Positions 11,073-47,570 of a stretch of 64,000 nt of DNA are shown in pieces; the stretch's first letter is position 1; each line of letters begins with the position of its first letter. The position numbers and the translations under genes were made by a program. The notes under the pieces were generated by a model that ran no database searches, had not been told where the DNA came from, and worked only from the letters and a program-made list of their open reading frames with translations. The DNA comes from Siphonodentalium dalli (lineage: Eukaryota; Mollusca; Scaphopoda; Gadilida; Siphonodentaliidae): contig CP136062.1 in assembly GCA_032622095.1 (NCBI GenBank), positions 227,804,578 through 227,868,577 of the forward strand, given 5' to 3'.

Positions 11073-12388
11073 GAACTGGTCAATTGGTGCATTCTGATAA
11101 GGCTAATGGTATCACACAAAGAACTGCAAAAAAGACCATTGGTCTCTTTATATTAATTCTCGCCGGTTGATGCAAGATAAAAATGTGAACTTGGTGGACA
11201 GTTAAATTATTCAGTTATCCAGAATGCACAGGTGTATATAAGATTGTGAATAGAATCATGAACAATTCGTCGTGACGTCAAACAACCATTCCCATGTCGT
11301 GTTCCAACACATCGTTAATTCATAGAATGATGGCGACACACATAGGTAGGAAAAACAGCTAGCGAAAAGAATGTTTTATGAATTGTGATGTTCCCTAATG
11401 TGATCCCCATTCCCGACAAGAGTGGTCCCACTTCGAAAAACAAAACATAGACTACACTATTGGGTCTCTTATATCGCGGAAAGTTTTAAAATAGTAACAT
11501 CTGTCTATCTCTCTGTCAGTTCGCGATTTTTCTCCCAGACCATTGGACCAATTTTGGGATGGTGACTCGGCCAAATCGAAAAAGTGCAGCGGCCAAATCG
11601 AAAAAGAGCTCTAGTTTTCGAGATACCCCTACCCTCGGTAGAACAAGTTGAAAACAACTTTTTTTTTAAAGAAATATATATTGTTCAGGAAAATAATAGT
11701 GTAAAATAACGGAATCGGTGGTGGCTATTGCCAAATCGACGATGAACGATACCCACCAATGACTTTTTCCATAAATTAACGATTTTGGTAAAGCGAGGCT
11801 TGCGGCTGTGTCATAACTTATTTGCCAACATTGTTGGTGTTAAAATTACTACATCATACCATATCTCTACTTGATATGAAAACAGTATTGGTTAATTTGG
11901 ATTGTCCTGCCATTTGGAGCCGAAAAATTTATTTTTTGCTGAAAAATCGCTGTTTTTCACAAAACTATTTTGTTTTCAAACATTATCATTCAAATGGATA
12001 TTACAAATAATGCCAGACTATTTAATACATTTGGTGTAGCAGTTATCTAAAAAGCATATGTAGACAGAATTTAACAGAAATTTACAACGGTTTGTGAAAT
12101 AATGGATTTAAGCTACCCCTCCCCCAAACACGTTTTTGGTTGAAAAATAACATATTTTTGTTAAGAACTTTACCAAATTTCCCAACATGACTCGTCTGCT
12201 GAAAATTTGGCCCGGGACATTGCTGAATGGATTAAAGACGTGATCAGACTTCCAAACCCCAAGTTACAACAACAACAACACAAACAAAAACACATATACA
12301 ACATCTAAAGAACAAGTTCAAAATTTCAACTTTCGTTACAGAATTTAGTAATATTGTTACCGCATATAGTCTGACAAACGGCCATCTT

Positions 12389-14824
12389 GTGTTTCTCGGA
12401 GATATAAATCTACATTACGAACTCCGCGACAACAAACCTGTCAACGACCTCAAATTGGTGTTTACTGAATTCGATATGCACCAAATCGTGAACAAACCAA
12501 CGCACCGACGTCAGCACATACTCGACTGGGTTGTTATGAGAGAGACTTCCTCGGCTTGTGGATTGCAGGTCCTGGATAAGACTATTGGTGATCACTTTTT
12601 GGTTCAATTCCACCTCAAAATCGTAAAGTCAGCAGCTCCTAAGAAAACGATCACCTCACGTAATCTGAAAGCAATCGACCGAACTGAATTCTCAGCCAGT
12701 ATCGATGCCGCATTGTCTTCCATTGATATATCGGATAATGATCTTGCTTTGTTTTACAACGACAAACTCTCAACGGTTCTTGACGAACATGCACCCCTTA
12801 TATCCCGTGTGGCCAGCGACAGAACATCGGCACCTTGGCTAACGTCCGATGTCACTGAATCGAAACGAATCAAACGACAAGCTGAACGAACATGGCGAAA
12901 ATCCGGATTGACAGTACATCGGGAAATATATGTTGAATGTAATCGACAATTGAATGTCACCATCAAGAATGCTAAAACTGAGTTCTACAACAATCAAATA
13001 TACAGCTGCAAATCGACCAAAATGTTGTTTAACATCACGAAACCGATGCTTGGAAAGTCAAAACCATCGATTTTCCCCAACGATCGCGCAGCTGGCACCT
13101 TAGCTGATTCCTTTGCATTGTTTTTCCGAGACAAAGTGTCAAAAATCAGAGCCATTGTTGACCAAACGCATGGTGCACCGGAATATTTGGAGTTCTCAAG
13201 TCACAGAAAAATGGACGAATTTCGATCTGTGAGTTCGGAAGAAGTTAAGAATGTGATTTTGTCAATGCCACCTAAGTCATGTTCGTTAGATCCCATTCCT
13301 ACAACACTTCTTCGTATTCACTGCGATCAACTTTTGGATGTAATAACTGATATTATTAACTCCTCGCTCTCAACGGGTGTTGTTCCCCAATGCTTCAAAC
13401 ACGCCAGTGTTACCCCATTGTTAAAGAAGTCTGGTTTAGATCAAAATTTGCTGCAAAACTATAGACCAGTCTCCAATCTTCCTTTCTTATCTAAAGTCCT
13501 TGAACGTGTAGTGCTCCACCAACTTCGTAAACACTTGAAAGACAATAATTTAGAAGAAAACTTTCAGTCAGCTTACAAGAAAAATCACTGTACGGAGACA
13601 GCCTTGACTCGAATTTTTAACGACTTGCTGTGTGCGACAGATGAGGGCAAACTCTCCATTCTTACATGCCTTGACCTCTCTGCGGCGTTTGACACGCTCG
13701 ATCATTCCATCCTGTTAAAACGCCTTTCTGTGACTTTCGGAATGTCCGGCACGGTATTAAAGTGGTTCCATTCTTACGTAACCGAGAGAACTCAATCAGT
13801 TATTGTTAATTCTACGACGTCTAACCCCGTGCATCTATCATATGGAGTGCCCCAAGGTTCTGTGCTGGGACCTGTACTATATCTCGTTTACACACAGCCT
13901 CTTGGAAACATCATCGAAAAACACAACATTCAGTATCACATGTATGCAGACGATACCCAAATGTACATATCAGTTGAGCCATCGATCTTAGACGAAGCAA
14001 TTTCTCAAGTTCAGACATGCGTTTCAGAAGTTAAAACATGGATGGAGATCAACAAACTCAAACTTAACGAAAGCAAAACTGAAATTATGCTTTGTGGAAC
14101 TAACGCTCGGTTGAAGGGGGTCAGTCTTAATGCCACGCTCATCGGCGACAGTGTAATTGAATTTTCTGATGTTATTAAAAACCTCGGTGTGACCATCGAC
14201 AAAAACTTCTCAATGTCATCTCACATCAGCAACCTATGCAGGTCCTTATATATGGAGCTCCGGCGCATTTCGCATGTACGTCCATATATCTCCGAACAAT
14301 CCACACAAATATTGATGTCCTCATTTGTGTTATCCAAAATCGATTACTGTAATTCTATTTTAGCAGGACTCCCAGATTATCAACTTCACAAACTTCAAAA
14401 AATTGTTAATATTGCTGCAAAAATTGTGTGCCGTGCAGGCAAATTTGATCATGTTACCCCACTGTTGTATAAATTACATTGGCTTCCCATATTTGAACGA
14501 ATTGTGTACAAACATGCTACTTTGTGTTATAGAAAGTCGGATATTGATAATGCTTTGCCACCATATATTGATACATTGTTGGTCAAATATGTACCTGCTC
14601 GACCACTTCGATCACAGGATGCGAATGCGATGGTTGTACCTAAACGAGATCTGATGTACTTTGGTCGCCGTTCTTTCGAGGTCTACGGGCCGACCATTTG
14701 GAACAACCTTCCCAAAGAGGTGAAACAGTCTGACTGTTTGGAAACATTCAAATCGGCCCTAAAAACTCACCTATTCATCTCCCATTTCGGACAAATAACA
14801 TCAGAAAACGTTGAGGAGACTTAA
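12389..14824 (+). CDS. Non-LTR retrotransposon ORF2: endonuclease remnant and reverse transcriptase
   Basis: An 811-codon open frame encoding the polymerase of a CR1/L2-group LINE. Such proteins nick target DNA and reverse-transcribe their own RNA there. Residues 1-80 keep only the C-terminal part of an APE-type endonuclease: GDIN at 4-7 (usual GDFN) and THRRQHILDWV at 38-48. The reverse transcriptase shows motif A DLSAAFDTLDH with Asp429, GVPQGSVLGP at 486-495 and the catalytic YADD at 519-522. The C-terminal domain ends with GRRSFEVYGPTIWNNLP, typical of the group. The frame is open upstream to the truncation at 12308 with no ATG, so the listed GTG start is arbitrary and the native start is lost. 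The N-terminal endonuclease half is missing, so this copy cannot be fully functional although the polymerase part shows no stop or frameshift. Confidence 0.93.
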   Translation: MFLGDINLHYELRDNKPVNDLKLVFTEFDMHQIVNKPTHRRQHILDWVVMRETSSACGLQVLDKTIGDHFLVQFHLKIVKSAAPKKTITSRNLKAIDRTEFSASIDAALSSIDISDNDLALFYNDKLSTVLDEHAPLISRVASDRTSAPWLTSDVTESKRIKRQAERTWRKSGLTVHREIYVECNRQLNVTIKNAKTEFYNNQIYSCKSTKMLFNITKPMLGKSKPSIFPNDRAAGTLADSFALFFRDKVSKIRAIVDQTHGAPEYLEFSSHRKMDEFRSVSSEEVKNVILSMPPKSCSLDPIPTTLLRIHCDQLLDVITDIINSSLSTGVVPQCFKHASVTPLLKKSGLDQNLLQNYRPVSNLPFLSKVLERVVLHQLRKHLKDNNLEENFQSAYKKNHCTETALTRIFNDLLCATDEGKLSILTCLDLSAAFDTLDHSILLKRLSVTFGMSGTVLKWFHSYVTERTQSVIVNSTTSNPVHLSYGVPQGSVLGPVLYLVYTQPLGNIIEKHNIQYHMYADDTQMYISVEPSILDEAISQVQTCVSEVKTWMEINKLKLNESKTEIMLCGTNARLKGVSLNATLIGDSVIEFSDVIKNLGVTIDKNFSMSSHISNLCRSLYMELRRISHVRPYISEQSTQILMSSFVLSKIDYCNSILAGLPDYQLHKLQKIVNIAAKIVCRAGKFDHVTPLLYKLHWLPIFERIVYKHATLCYRKSDIDNALPPYIDTLLVKYVPARPLRSQDANAMVVPKRDLMYFGRRSFEVYGPTIWNNLPKEVKQSDCLETFKSALKTHLFISHFGQITSENVEET

Positions 14825-17544: not shown

Positions 17545-20500
17545 TAGGAGAGATTGTGTCACGTGCTCGATGCGTGTTGTTATTAGGAGAGATTATGTCA
17601 CGTGCTCGCCGTGTGTTGTTATTAGGAGAGATTGTGTCACGGGCTCGCTGTGTGTTGTTATTAGGAGAGATTGTGTCATGTGCTCGCTGTGTGTTGTTAT
17701 TAGGAGTGATTGTGTGCACGTGCTCGCAGCGTGTTGTTATTATGAGTGATTGTGTGCACGTGCTCGCCGCGTGTTGTTATTAGGAGTGATTGTGTGCACG
17801 TGCTCGCCGCGTGTTGTTATTAGGAGTGATTGTGTGCACGTGCTCGCTGTGTGTTGTTATTAAGAGAGATTGTGTGCACGTGCTCGCCGCGTGTTGTTAT
17901 TTGGAGTGATTTTGTGCACGTGCTCGCTGAGTGTTGTTATTAGGAGAGATTGTGTGCACGTGCTCGCCGCGTGTTGTTATTAGGAGTGATTGTGTGCACG
18001 TGTTCGCTGTGTGTTGTTATTAGGAGAAATTGTGTGCACGTGCTCCCCGCGTGTTGTTATTAAGAGTGATTGTGTGCACGTGCTCGCTGGGTGTTGTTAT
18101 TAGGTTAGGAGAAATTGTGTGCACGTGCTCCCCGCGTGTTGTTATTAAGAGTGATTGTGTGCACGTGCTCGCTGTGTGTTGTTATTATGAGAGATTGTGT
18201 CACGTGCTCGCTGTGTGTTGTTATTAGGAGATTGTGTCACGTGCTCGCCGCGTGTTGTTATTAGGAGTGATTGTGTGCACATGCTCGCTGTGTGTTGTTA
18301 TTAGGAGATATTGTGTGCACGTGCTCGCCGCGTGTTGTTATTAGGAGTGATTGTGTGCACGTGCCCACTGCGTATTGTTATTAGGAGTGATTGTGTGCAC
18401 GTTCTCGCTGTGTGTTGTTATTATGAGAGATTGTGTGCACGTGCTCGCTGTGTGTTGTTATTAGGAGTGATTGTGTGCACATGCTCGCTGTGTGTTGTTA
18501 TTAGGAGATATTGTGTGCACGTGCTCGCCGCGTGTTGTTATTAGGAGTGATTGTGTGCACGTGCCCACTGCGTATTGTTATTAGGAGTGATTGTGTGCAC
18601 GTTCTCGCTGTGTGTAGTTATTAGGAGTGATTGTGTACACGTGCTCGCTGTGTGTTGTTATTAGGAGAGATTGTGAGCACGTGCTCGCCGCGTGTTGTTA
18701 TTAGGAGTGATTGTGTACACGTGCTCGCTGTGTGTTGTTATTAGGAGAGATTGTGTCACGTGCTCTCCGCGTGTTGTTATTAGGAGTGATTATGTGCACA
18801 TGCTCGCTGTGTGTTGTTATTAGGAGAGATTGTGTGCACATGCTCGCCGTGTGTTGTTATTAGGAGAGATTGTGTGCACGTGCTCGTTGCGTGTTGTTAT
18901 TATGAGAGTTTGTGTGCACGTGCTCTCTGCGTGTTGCTATTAGGAGAGATTGTGTGTACGTGCTCGTTGCGTGTTTTTATTAAGACAAATTGTGGTCACG
19001 TGCTATCTGCATGTTGTTACTAAGAGAGATTGTGTGCACGTGCTCGTTGCGTGTTGTTATTATGAGAGATTGTGGTCACGTGCTCTCTGCGTGTTGTTAT
19101 TAAGAGAGTTTGTGTGTACGTGCTCGTTGCGTGTTGTTATTAGGAGAGATTGTGTGCACGGGCTCTCTGCGTGTTGTTATTAGGAGAGATTGTGTGCACG
19201 GGCTCTATGTGTGTTGTTATTAGGAGAGATTGTGTGCACGTGCTCTCTGCGTGTTGTTATTAGGAGAGATTGCATGCATGTGCTCTCTGTGTGTTGTTAT
19301 TAGGAGAGTTTGTGTGCACGTGCTCTCTGCGTGTTGTTATTAGGAGAGATTGTGTGCACGTGCTCTCTGCGTGTTGTTATTAGGAGAGTTTGTGTGCACG
19401 TGCTCTCTGTGTGTTATTATTAGGAGAGTTTGTGTGCACGTGCTCTCTGTGTGTTGTTGTTAGGAGAGTTTGTGTGCACGTGCTCTCTGTGTGTTATTAT
19501 TAGGACAGTTTGTGTGCACGTGCTATCTGCGTGTTGTTGTTAGGAGAGATTGTGTGCACGTGCTCTCTGTGTGTTATTATTAGGACAGTTTGTGTGCACG
19601 TGCTATCTGCGTGGTGTTGTTAGGAGAGATTGTGTGCACGTGCTCTCTGTGTGTTATTATTAGGACAGTTTGTGTGCACGTGCTATCTGCGTGTTGTTGT
19701 TAGGAGAGATTGTGTGCACGTGCTCTCTGTGTGTTATTATTAGGACAGTTTGTGTGCACGTGCTATCTGCGTGTTGTTGTTAGGAGAGATTGTGTGCACG
19801 TGCTCTCTGTGTGTTATTATTAGGACAGTTTGTGTGCACGTGCTATCTGCGTGTTGTTGTTAGGAGAGATTGTGTGCACGTGCTCTCTGTGTGTTATTAT
19901 TAGGACAGTTTGTGTGCACGTGCTATCTGCGTGTTGTTGTTAGGAGAGATTGTGTGCACGTGCTCTCTGTGTGTTATTATTAGGACAGTTTGTGTGCACG
20001 TGCTATCTGCGTGTTGTTGTTAGGAGAGATTGTGCGCACGTGCTCTCTGTGTGTTATTATTAGGACAGTTTGTGTGCACGTGCTATCTGCGTGTTGTTGT
20101 TAGGAGAGATTGTGTGCACGTGCTCTCTGTGTGTTATTATTAGGACAGTTTGTGTGCACGTGCTATCTGCGTGTTGTTGTTAGGAGAGATTGTGTGCACG
20201 TGCTCTCTGTGTGTTATTATTAGGACAGTTTGTGTGCACGTGCTATCTGCGTGTTGTTGTTAGGAGAGATTGTGTGCACGTGCTCTCTGTGTGTTATTAT
20301 TAGGACAGTTTTTGTGCACGTGCTATCTGCGTGTTGTTGTTAGGAGAGATTGTGTGCACGTGCTCTCTGTGTGTTATTATTAGGACAGTTTGTGTGCACG
20401 TGCTATCTGCGTGTTGTTGTTAGGAGAGATTGTGTGCACGTGCTCTCTGTGTGTTATTATTAGGACAGTTTGTGTGCACGTGCTATCTGCGTGTTGTTGT

Positions 20501-21185
20501 TAGGAGAGATTGTGTGCACGTGCTCTCTGTGTGTTATTATTAAGACAGTTTGTGTGCACGTGCTATCTGCGTGTTGTTGTTGGGAGAGATTGTGTGCACG
20601 TGCTCTCTGTGTGTTATTATTAGGACAGTTTGTGTGCACGTGCTATCTGCGTGTTGTTGTTGGGAGAGATTGTGTGCACGTGCTCTCTGTGTGTTATTAT
20701 TAGGACAGTTTGTGTGCACGTGCTATCTGCGTGTTGTTGTTAGGAGAGATTGTGTGCACGTGCTCTCTGTGTGTTATTATTAGGACAGTTTGTGTGCACG
20801 TGCTATCTGCGTGTTGTTGTTAGGAGAGATTGTGTGCACGTGCTCTCTGCGTGTTGTTATTAGGAGAGATTGCCTGCATGTGCTCTCTGCGTGTTGTTAT
20901 TATGAGAGATTGTGTGCACGTGCTCTCTGTGTGTTATTATTAGGATAGTTTGTGTGCACGTGCTCTCTGCGTGTTGTTGTTAGGAGAGATTGTGTGCACG
21001 TGCTCTCTGCGTGTTGTTGTTAGGATAGTTTGTGTGCACGTGCTCTCTGCGTGTTGTTGTTAGGATAGTTTGTGTGCACGTGCTCTCTGTGTGTTGTTGT
21101 TAGGAGAGATTGTGTGCACGTGCTCTCTGCGTGTTGTTGTTAGGAGAGATTGTGTGCACGTGCTCGTTGCGTGTTGTTATTGGGA
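17545..21185. repeat. 40-bp satellite array (~90 units)
   Basis: The unit is about 40 bp: GTGTTGTTATTAGGAGAGAT followed by TGTGTGCACGTGCTCTCTGC. Each unit carries overlapping palindromes GTGCAC and CACGTG. The left part (17545-18780) is more variable and includes shorter GTCACGTG variants. It also has a local duplication of a five-unit block with 200-bp spacing (for example GTGCCCACTGCGTATTG at 18360 and again at 18560). Open frames through the array are period-driven artefacts. Confidence 0.95.
19501..20860. repeat. 80-bp higher-order repeat, 17 copies
   Basis: Within the 40-bp array two monomer types alternate strictly: TAGGACAGTT...GCTATCTGC GTGTTGTTGT and TAGGAGAGAT...GCTCTCTGT GTGTTATTAT. 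TAGGACAGTT (or TAAGACAGTT) recurs every 80 bases at 19501, 19581, 19661 and so on to 20781. Copies are almost identical, indicating recent amplification of the dimer inside an older array. Confidence 0.95.
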
Positions 21186-21301
21186 GATACGTTTGAATTT
21201 GAACATATGTTACTCATAATTATTTTGGCAGTTTTGAAAACTTGTTCACATTATTAATGTTCTATTAAAATTTAAAATGTACTGGTGTATGATTATAATG
21301 A

Positions 21302-32520: not shown

Positions 32521-33480
32521 CAGGGTTGGCGCTGGACCAAAATTTTTTCTTGCCAAAATTTTTGCCAAATGAATTTTTGTTTTTGCCAAATGAATTTTTT
32601 TTTTGCCAAATTAAATCGAAGGTCAAATTGGGGGAAAATTAGCGTTTCTATCTTTATTCATATAAAACGTAAACAGACACAGGTAAAATGACAACAAATC
32701 AATATTAAATGTTAATAGAAGACACAATACATTTAGACAAGCAATTGTCAAATACTAGTTTATCACATAAACCTATAGTATGGTAATGCACATTAATATT
32801 AAACATGAACAATTCTACGAGACTTAACATCAACCCACTTCAAAAATGCAGCAGCAAAATCAAACTCAGACACAGATGGTCCTTCGATAGAAACTTTCAT
32901 TAGATCATTGTGATAACGAACAGACAATCGATTGCGCGATTTTGTTTTAACAATGTTTTGAATGGAGAAGGCTCGCTCGAAGTCGACTGTTGATACGGGA
33001 ACACAGACTAGCCGTTCGGCAAACTGAGTTCCCAGTAAAACACTCTTGGGTATAAAACGGCCCTCCGATTTCAACAGATATCTCCCAAAAACAACAACAT
33101 TCTGGGATGAAGACATGTCCGTAGATTCGTCTAACATGACGCTGTAAACGGGTGATTGTCGAATTTCGTTGATGCAGTTTGTGTCGATCACAGAAATAAT
33201 GGCGTCATGGAATTCAGCGACACTTTGGTGATGGGTGCATGTACGTGGTCTGTTTGTCGACTTTTAGTGCCCGCCAAGTCACTGTTACCCTGGTGGATGC
33301 ACAGTTCGTTTAGGTCACCTAATAGGCTGTTGGGTAGCTGATGCTTTGCTATGAAGTAAGCATTTTTCATAGCAGCGACAACGGATTTCTCGGCTTTGAC
33401 GACGGCAGTTTTGTGGACTTCTTTCATGTTTTTTGATTCGTTGATCATTTGTACGGCAATGCTGTGATAATTTATGCCTG
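32521..33480 (-). mobile_element. Degenerate hAT DNA transposon fragment
   Basis: The 3' end relative to the transposase is at 32521 (CAGGGTTGGCGCTGG followed by TTTGCCAAAT repeats). A broken transposase on the minus strand fills 32799-33479. The other terminus is not identified. Confidence 0.75.
32799..33479 (-). pseudogene. hAT transposase pseudogene (KIAA1586/ZBED-like type), frameshifted and deleted
   Basis: Two minus-strand frames give one protein family. The upstream frame (to 33188) contains KAEKSVVAAMKNAYFIAKHQ, like the segment before the catalytic core. The downstream frame (about 33245 to 32799) contains VYSVMLDESTDMSS with the catalytic-region DEST motif, then PVSTVDFERAFS and KTKSRNRLS, the hAT C-terminal dimerisation region. 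One frameshift near 33230-33260 separates the frames. The several hundred residues normally between DEST and the dimerisation region are absent. An acceptor-like ATTTTCAG/GC at about 33479 suggests an exon boundary. Inactive by inference; the family assignment rests on motif resemblance. Confidence 0.75.
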
Positions 33481-44940: not shown

Positions 44941-45346
44941 GTGAGTTCCACTACAAACAATTCGATAGAAGAAAAGAGATAAATTTAGAAGCTGCAGAAG
45001 AATACAAAAACCTGCTCCGGTCGGAACAGAATGAACCAGTTATTTAGGGTCTGTTTGGCAAAATCAGGAGATTTCGTGTCGATTTATCTAAAACAGGGTC
45101 ATTAAGATCGGACGCGTTATCGCTATCAGTTATTGTATGTTCCTTTAACCTAAGTGATCCATACTGGTGTAATAGGGCGACAAGTGAGATGGTGTTTCGA
45201 GCCTGCTGATAGACTCGCGATAGAACGCAAATCGCACCGAGGAACGACATTGTCTCACATATAGATCATCTCGTTTGCGCCATGGACTTTGCGTTTGTCT
45301 GTCCTTGGGTTATTGCTGTTAATGGAAAACGAAAATAGTTGAGTGA

Positions 45347-45453
45347 CGACATTAATTTCCATGACGTCAGAACCATCTTATATGAGATTAATTTGCATGA
45401 CGACAGAACCATCTTAATGACATTCATTTTCGAGACGACATAACCATCTTAAT
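45347..45453. promoter_or_regulatory. Three ~45-bp direct repeats with a CRE-like site, upstream of the insulin-like gene
   Basis: GACATTAATTTCCATGACGT + CAGAACCATCTTA is followed by two diverged repeats (GATTAATTTGCATGACGACA and GACATTCATTTTCGAGACGA, each then AACCATCTTA). The first holds a perfect cAMP-response element TGACGTCA at 45362-45369. It lies ~555 bp before the ATG. Regulatory meaning is inferred. Confidence 0.35.
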
Positions 45454-45921
45454 TTAAAGACAATTAACGGTGTGCAGAGGAAAACGCGATGCTTCTAAAT
45501 CACAAATTGAGCTCTTTAATTGTGACAGAAATTCCTGACGTGAGATGACAAAACAAACAGGGCCAGCGCGGTGGATTCGACAGTTAGGACTGTCATCGTG
45601 CTAATCAAGGTTAATGACTGTGTTTCTCGTCTGAATACAGCGCTAATTGGCTGCGGTGACCGCTATTAGCTACCTGATTGTGCCCATCGTGATTTGCTGA
45701 TAACTCAGTGGGTACATTGCGTGGGTGCGGACAATCGAATAATACGGAATGCTGATTTCACAGAATATCAGAATATTATTATTCCACATGCATGATTATT
45801 CTAAATAACGGAACAGTATTCAAACAGTTCACGCGAGATTTAGCAATTCGTCGCTTTGAAGAGGACGTGCTATCGACAACTTTCGGAATATAGCTCTTCA
45901 GGATTTATTAATTTCAAAGCG

Positions 45922-46365
45922 ATGTTACCAAGATGGACAGTTTGCTTAGGATTTTTATGCATGTGCTATTTCTGCAAATTGTCTGAACAGGCTTCCACCA
46001 AACAGTGTACATCGTTCAACTCGCGCTCTCCACAGGGAACGTGTGGAAGTCAGCTTGTTTCGCTCGTTCAAATGGTGTGTCGTATGCAGAATCATATCCT
46101 CGATCTGCAGCATCAATCTGTGGACCATCGATCTGTGGACCAAATAGATCCCTCAAGTGCAGCCAACCGAAGACTTCCAAGGTCGATAACTCTATCCAAA
46201 GAGGACGCTCATTCGGTGTTGCGATCCAAAAGGTCAACAAGACTTCCTGGAGGTATAGTTTGCGAATGCTGTTACCATCAGTGCTCGATTCAAGAAATAA
46301 GCGAATATTGTTGGTTTACTCCCCGGAGACATAGACACCATCGCAATAGAAGACCGCATCATTGA
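45922..46365 (+). CDS. Prepro-insulin-like peptide (molluscan-type, eight cysteines)
   Basis: A 147-codon intronless frame with the full layout of a secreted insulin-family hormone, which would signal through an insulin-type receptor tyrosine kinase. Residues 1-24 are a hydrophobic signal peptide. The B-chain region has Cys29, Cys41 and Cys53, with CGSQLVSLVQMVC matching the C-G-x-x-L-V-(6)-C spacing of insulins. A connecting segment follows, with NRR at 82-84 and a convertase site SKR at 102-104. The A chain GIVCECCYHQCSIQEISEYC (111-130) has the family CC-x3-C-x8-C core. Extra Cys29 and Cys114 give a probable fourth disulfide, as in molluscan insulin-related peptides. The ATG at 45922 is chosen because it directly precedes the signal peptide; the open frame before it has no ATG. 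Odd points: no intron in the C-peptide region, a repeated SVD(H/Q) segment at 66-74, and an unusual Arg/His-rich C-terminal tail TPRRHRHHRNRRPHH. It could be a retrocopy, but the frame is intact. Confidence 0.92.
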   Translation: MLPRWTVCLGFLCMCYFCKLSEQASTKQCTSFNSRSPQGTCGSQLVSLVQMVCRMQNHILDLQHQSVDHRSVDQIDPSSAANRRLPRSITLSKEDAHSVLRSKRSTRLPGGIVCECCYHQCSIQEISEYCWFTPRRHRHHRNRRPHH

Positions 46366-46602
46366 AATGACTAACAATATATGTTTCCGTTTCATATTGC
46401 TAACAATTCCGCGACTTTTGGTCTGTATGACGGTGCTTATCAATGTTTCGGTCCCAATCGAACGCTCCGCATGTCTGACTATAGTACATGTCTTGCTTCA
46501 GCCCAATATATATTATACACACCGGCGAAGGTCTCAAACTTGTTACCCCATGGCAAATTACATGCAGCTTATAGTGCTATATATAGATTATAATTATCTG
46601 AT

Positions 46603-46866
46603 TTAACCTTGTCGTGACTGGAGCTGCGCTGGTGCAGCATTACAGATCATGTGCCAGGGCATTCTCTTATATATGCGAGTCTCTCATATGGAGCCTCGCA
46701 TATATAAGAAAATGCACTGGCTTACAATGTGAAGGTAAATATTGTTAGGACGATGTGTTCTCTTATATATATGCGAGGCTCCCTATGGAAGATCCGCGTA
46801 TATAAGATAATGCATTGGCACAGGGTTTTCGCAACATTTCAGGAAATCCAGTCATGGAATAGTTAA
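46603..46866. repeat. T1 element, variant copy J downstream of the insulin-like gene
   Basis: TTAACCTTGTCGTGACTGGA ... TCCAGTCATGGAATAGTTAA with TTAA on both sides. The two hairpins are diverged, with GAGTCTCTCATATGGAGCCTC and GAGGCTCCCTATGGAAGATC centres. A third shell type, closest to copy O (55050-55299). Confidence 0.8.
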
Positions 46867-47570
46867 TGTACCGTTGTTTGCAGTATATGTGACTGTGTTA
46901 ACATACACCCAGACTCACATTGACACTGAGTCTATTGTATTCCCGTTAATTTTTCATTTCTCAGAACGCTTGTGATCGTCCCCTCAAATTACGTCACGTC
47001 GCTATAAGTTAATTCGAGTGGGCACTTTTATCTTGGTTCTACTGATAGTGAGTTGTGATTGGACACTTTTATCTTGGTGCTACTGATAGTGCGTTGTAAT
47101 TGTCGCGATTGATGTGGAATCAGGCGGTTCGGCCGGGAAATCAGACCCACTATCTTGTTGTGGGTCGTTAGTTAACTTAGACTATATGTTGTTCGATAAT
47201 ATATTGTTATTGTCATTTGTTGTTAATACTGATGTATAACATGTCGCAGCACGATCTGCATGTCCTTGCACGACTGACAGATTTGTCCTCATCAAAATAA
47301 TATGAATTTGTTTTTAAATTTGAAATTTCCCACGAGCCGAACCACACAGGCCTTGGGTATCAGTTGGAAATAAATCAGAGCCTATGGAGGAAGGGAGGGG
47401 GTGAAAATGTAAATACACAAATTTGTGAGTTTGATCTGGGGGTGCGGTTGGAAATTTCGAGGGATTAATTTCGATTTGGATTCTAGACGTATATGTATAT
47501 GAACAAACAACCACATATATAATTTTCTTGAGTTTGAGTTGTATCGGTGTTACTGTTACCAATAAACTAT
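46867..47570. repeat. Mostly unrecognised; one short tandem repeat
   Basis: 47030-47100 holds two copies of GGCACTTTTATCTTGGTTCT / GGACACTTTTATCTTGGTGC plus ACTGATAGTG. Otherwise no feature is seen. Confidence 0.5.

Follow-up and report, generated by a model that had tools for sequence, protein, structure and literature searches.

A putatively retroposed insulin-like gene without the C-peptide intron in the scaphopod mollusc Siphonodentalium dalli

Intronless insulin genes are known from rodents, fish and silkmoths. In vertebrate insulins the second intron lies in the C-peptide region, and most bombyxin genes of the silkmoth are intronless (PMC3745042). Rodent Ins1 arose by retroposition, with removal of the C-peptide intron, and is a recent copy in which the non-coding first exon and some 500 bases of 5' flanking sequence have been retained, while insa2 of the pike is a retroposed gene with an intact coding sequence (PMC8051583). 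Among the molluscan insulin-related peptides (MIPs), the cuttlefish peptide SjILP presents the A-chain signature C(1X)CC(3X)C(8X)C with stated disulfides (PMC9221753); the main text of that source makes no mention of introns or exons. Likewise, the structure of molluscan insulin genes is not given in the available text of PMC6425005, PMC8149454, PMC7357564 and PMC4200219, and no description of an intronless or retroposed molluscan insulin was found in the open-access literature.

The gene analyzed here lies in a window of 64,000 bases (CP136062.1, 227804578-227868577), on the second of the nine contigs that make up the 2.23-Gb genome of S. dalli (contigs are designated C1 to C9 below), and by comparison with the above systems it is a further example of the known intronless insulins. 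Its predicted product resembles MIPs such as SjILP in having eight cysteines, the B-C-A order and dibasic sites, a likeness that covers the peptide only (PMC9221753). It shares with bombyxins the condition of an intronless insulin-like gene in an animal that has insulin genes in many copies, although most bombyxin genes are intronless whereas one such member was found in this family (PMC3745042). The similarity to Ins1 and insa2 extends to the single coding exon, the absence of the C-peptide intron, the intact frame and the presence of intron-bearing sisters (PMC8051583); unlike Ins1, the window gene has neither a close parent nor a recognised promoter. Its two-exon paralogs in the same genome have the same eight-cysteine pattern and an A-core identity of up to 15 of 20 residues, yet their exons are about 9.9-26.7 kb apart, separated by a phase-1 intron, and their B-chain tails are shorter. 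The window gene alone changes no view of insulin biology. It adds a probable lophotrochozoan case in which the C-peptide intron is gone and the frame is intact, in a genome that also contains sister genes with the intron. With these sisters it forms a natural comparison, both for what is required of an insulin gene that stays functional after intron loss and for whether an altered B-chain tail alters signalling.

Precursor architecture and family membership

A complete frame of 147 codons was found on the forward strand, running from the ATG at 45922 to the stop codon at 46363-46365, within an enclosing open frame of 173 codons (45844-46365). The features of the predicted precursor are as follows:

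45922..46365, + strand: insulin-like precursor coding sequence, 147 aa plus stop; complete frame with a Pfam match
45922..45996, + strand: presumed signal peptide, residues 1 to ~25, boundary inferred; residues 5-18 hydrophobic
45997..46167, + strand: presumed B chain, residues 26-82, with the extra Cys29, C41-G-S-Q-L-V, Cys53 and a 29-residue tail
46106..46135, + strand: in-frame tandem repeat in the B-chain tail, 15-base unit, copies 80% alike
46168..46173, + strand: dibasic site RR 83-84
46174..46227, + strand: C-peptide, 18 aa, residues 85-102; site of the phase-1 intron in the paralogs
46228..46233, + strand: dibasic site KR 103-104 (SKR being residues 102-104)
46234..46311, + strand: A chain, residues 105-130, CECC-x3-C-x8-C; signature as in PMC9221753
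46312..46362, + strand: basic C-terminal tail, residues 131-147

The deduced protein matched the Pfam family Insulin (PF00049) with 41.7 bits in hmmscan (E = 2.4e-10; curated cut-off 23), and the two other Pfam families listed for it were both under their own cut-offs. IGF-I was the top PDB sequence match, the best of 35 listed (E = 5.6e-4), mainly through the A chain. Cysteines of the mature region were located at residues 29, 41, 53, 114, 116, 117, 121 and 130. Six of them (41, 53, 116, 117, 121 and 130) compose, within one precursor, the arrangement of the superfamily, that is, C-x11-C in the B chain and CC-x3-C-x8-C in the A chain, and Cys29 and Cys114 make up the fourth pair of the MIPs, with the A chain reading C-x-CC-x3-C-x8-C. 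The A core corresponds to GIVCECCYHQCSIQEISEYC, and is followed by the basic tail. Bombyxins, for their part, have six cysteines. Across all six frames of the window, the complete eight-cysteine pattern gave a single match, and 60 dinucleotide shuffles gave none.

The length of the frame by itself is only mildly unusual, because 6 of 2000 shuffled versions of the local 1 kb also had a stop-free run of at least 173 codons; judged from the sequence, the case for a gene is carried by the family match and not by frame length. A chance open frame that happens to resemble insulin, which those six shuffles would permit as far as length is concerned, was rejected on the grounds of the Pfam match, the eight-cysteine pattern and the presence of homologous exons in the same genome, and its probability was considered negligible. 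A single-sequence structure model of the precursor was unusable (pLDDT 38.2, pTM 0.24).

The initial annotation of this DNA had described an intact insulin-like gene with a C-G-x-x-L-V core in the B chain, an SKR site and a fourth cysteine pair of the MIP type, and all of these were recovered in the present analysis; the RR site at residues 83-84 was absent from that description. The signal peptide that it had also proposed stood in part: residues 5-18, read by eye, are hydrophobic and resemble the core of a signal peptide, but no obvious ideal cleavage site was seen. The mollusc-like origin proposed in that annotation was read here from the eight-cysteine pattern; a search for PF14830, the haemocyanin domain of molluscs, gave no match, and since its 14 controls likewise gave none, this result carries no weight in either direction.

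The tail of the B chain was compared with this genome's paralogs only. In the window gene, Cys53 is followed by 29 residues before a dibasic site (RR 83-84) is reached, as against 5-12 residues past the last B-chain cysteine in 11 of 12 paralog B exons, the twelfth (C4:241.9 Mb) having no dibasic site in its B-chain tail. The 15-base tandem repeat accounts in part for this extra length. The motif GG-x-Y, present in the B-chain tail of 8 of the 12 paralog B exons, is absent from the window gene.

Intron-bearing sister genes and the probable route of intron loss

The genome was searched with PF00049 (12 matches, E up to 10), with the window protein (12 matches) and with three paralog B exons (10, 12 and 3 matches). 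Besides the window gene, the eight-cysteine insulin family comprised 12 intact B exons, a count that omits a truncated B exon at C5:174829771, and 9 A exons, a count that omits an exon of another class, without the extra cysteine, at C1:208875117. Seven B/A pairs matched in order and strand and were 9,880-26,656 bases apart (between match ends), the pairing being based on position, strand and phase and not on transcripts:

C8:126.8, C7:154.9, C6:77.6, C9:51.7, C1:74.95, C8:185.35 and C8:185.73 Mb: seven two-exon MIP paralogs

Donor sites of the paralogs had the form G/GTRRG (the slash marking the exon end) in 11 of 12 cases and a weak form, G/GTAAAT, in the other one, the exon ending in every case one base into a codon, and a phase-1 junction was found at all nine acceptors, each read within its own locus. 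As read from these sites, the paralogs have one common phase-1 intron in the C-peptide, the same region that holds the second intron of vertebrate insulins (PMC3745042). In the window gene this intron is exactly missing and the coding sequence lies in one frame, a condition found in no other family member within reach of the genome searches. The uninterrupted C-peptide had been regarded as unusual in the initial annotation, which had also suggested a search for intron-containing paralogs elsewhere in the genome; with the seven two-exon paralogs found, the window gene is indeed the exception in this genome.

The C-peptide of the window gene has 18 aa, compared with 20 in four of the spliced paralogs, about 21-24 in two (a range set by alternative acceptor choices) and 31 in one; no remnant of the intron is left in it. 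A short in-frame intron hidden in the C-peptide or in the B-chain tail, so that the gene would be spliced after all, might be suspected from the 29-residue tail; however, GT occurs 8 times in 46081-46252 but never in the GTRRG form seen in 11 of 12 paralog donors, the C-peptide is of normal length, and part of the extra tail is accounted for by the tandem repeat, so this explanation was judged very improbable. When the DNA at 45400-46560 was searched against the genome, only the self-match was returned, and a wider query (45400-46640) added matches to the 3'-end repeat only, among the 40 of 213 candidates that were scored; this type of search skips common words and may miss weak matches, and the gene is single-copy within that reach.

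The remaining members of the family showed several arrangements. No B exon was found by pattern in the ~20 kb upstream of the A exon at C6:67.0 Mb, nor in the ~10 kb upstream of that at C8:185.68 Mb; the B exon of the C8:185.73 Mb gene was absent from the 20 kb upstream of its A exon and was located farther off by search. No A exon was found for the B exons at C6:191.7, C5:174.9, C7:134.9, C9:52.3 and C4:241.9 Mb. The two-exon MIP genes at C8:185.73 and C8:185.35 Mb are near-identical, lie ~0.38 Mb apart on opposite strands, and have the A cores most similar to that of the window gene. At C5:174.83-174.90 Mb, an intact and a truncated MIP B exon, very similar and ~75 kb apart, represent a local duplication with one copy broken. 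The A exon of the C9:51.7 Mb gene has an identical counterpart at another locus, and the A-chain exon of the other insulin class (C1:208875117-208875239) has CC-x4-C spacing. Two weak matches were discarded: C2:33436270 (E = 0.86), considered as a second intronless copy, falls in a stretch that by eye is a seven-helix receptor exon on the opposite strand, and C1:93180199 (E = 0.12) falls in a stretch without the insulin pattern.

The exact removal of the intron points to an RNA intermediate. On the whole, the window gene is probably an old, constrained insulin-like hormone gene of the eight-cysteine (MIP) class, whose intron was lost via RNA, most likely by retroposition. In such a course of events, a two-exon MIP gene would have given rise, through an RNA intermediate, to a retroposed copy minus its one coding intron, which would then have been retained by selection.

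Retroposition to a new site was somewhat favoured over loss of the intron in place, by which an old MIP paralog, at the same site, would have shed the intron by recombination with its own cDNA and kept its promoter. Exact intron removal fits both routes equally well, and loss in place would also agree with the lack of a close parent, the best paralog matching at 48% over 53 residues, and with the lack of retroposition marks. The longest word shared by the flanks, sought as a target-site duplication, was of 8 bases, a length reached in 75 of 100 shuffles, and no A-run of five or more, as a poly-A remnant, was found in 46367-46600. The upstream region speaks weakly against loss in place: TATA[AT]A occurs 87-101 bases before the ATG in 8 of 12 paralogs, and none was found in 45300-45922, upstream of the window gene. 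This absence is weak evidence, because random pieces of the window often have or lack the motif (present in 723 of 2000 pieces of 160 bases; absent from 559 of 2000 pieces of 622 bases). Loss in place was kept as a possible, though rather unlikely, alternative to retroposition, and the label of retrogene is used conditionally, since poly-A and target-duplication marks are absent and such marks erode with age. As to a possible parent gene, A-core identity favours the C8:185 pair, whereas in the FastTree tree the window gene sits next to C1:74.95 Mb, with a long branch.

Purifying constraint and proposed function

When the 20-codon A core of the window gene was compared with that of the C8:185.35 Mb paralog, 2 differences were found at first, 3 at second and 14 at third codon positions. 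A codon model was fitted to 48 alignable codons from the window gene plus six paralogs (seven genes in all, two of the paralogs being without a B exon). A neutral window branch was rejected on four tree shapes (2dlnL = 17.7, 19.1, 25.5 and 27.4), also when the eight cysteine columns were left out (2dlnL = 13.5, 15.6, 21.8 and 23.1). By part, 2dlnL was 19.1 for the A part alone and 4.2 (p = 0.04) for the B part alone. These values come from columns chosen for alignability, with silent sites saturated and the branch length reaching its limit in each of the ten free fits, and the window branch spans time before the intron loss too; with this scope, they give a signal of purifying constraint on the window lineage.

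A recently silenced copy, that is, a real insulin gene until lately, which lost promoter and expression while its frame is still unbroken, would account for the lack of a recognised promoter and for the weak signal of constraint in the B part alone. Simulated neutral decay, with substitutions only and without indels, gives this reading some time to persist: 633 of 5000 copies still kept the frame, the Met and the eight cysteines at 0.05 substitutions per site. Nevertheless, intact copies fell to 2 of 5000 at 0.2 and to 0 of 5000 at 0.33 substitutions per site, and together with the rejection of a neutral window branch on the four trees this makes recent silencing improbable.

As a constrained hormone gene, the reading preferred here, the window gene should by family membership encode a secreted two-chain hormone. 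After entry into the secretory pathway, the precursor would acquire four disulfides (29-114, 41-117, 53-130 and 116-121, as mapped from the SjILP pairing) and be cut at RR 83-84 and KR 103-104, and the resulting two-chain hormone would act on an insulin-receptor-type tyrosine kinase; such processing, disulfide pairing, receptor and expression are what we infer for the product. The initial annotation had proposed a functional secreted hormone gene: the intact frame, with its signal of purifying selection, agrees with a functional gene, but secretion is taken from the family. Receptor L-domain exons were detected at C3:237.5 and C4:288.2 Mb (5 matches in the genome search), which is consistent with an insulin receptor. 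They are no proof of one, because EGF-receptor-type genes also carry the receptor L domain.

A more specific proposal is put forward tentatively, as possible and not as expected: the gene may be an ancient retroposed and neofunctionalised insulin, in which the A chain stayed constrained and the B chain lost GG-x-Y and gained a long tail, derived partly from in-frame duplication. If this were true, it would signal differently from its sisters with two exons, and might do so in a different tissue, having left its promoter behind.

Surrounding repeats

The gene had been described as lying in a repeat-dominated region with a MITE within 240 bp, and both points agree with the repeats found in the window:

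46590..46870, no strand assigned: palindromic MITE-like repeat, boundaries approximate, in the flank only, starting ~225 bases past the stop codon

This element was found at 16 distinct places in the 64-kb window (15 besides 46590-46870), and copies were present on other contigs. No Rfam family reached threshold anywhere in the window. An open frame of 862 codons on the forward strand (12236-14824) contains a reverse transcriptase domain (RVT_1, E = 1.3e-32) and is probably a non-LTR retrotransposon, the class being assigned by eye. A fragment on the reverse strand (32799-33263) corresponds to the dimerisation region of a hAT transposase (E = 3.7e-6), and a tandem array at 17545-21187 consists of ~91 copies of a 40-base unit, with 87% matches.
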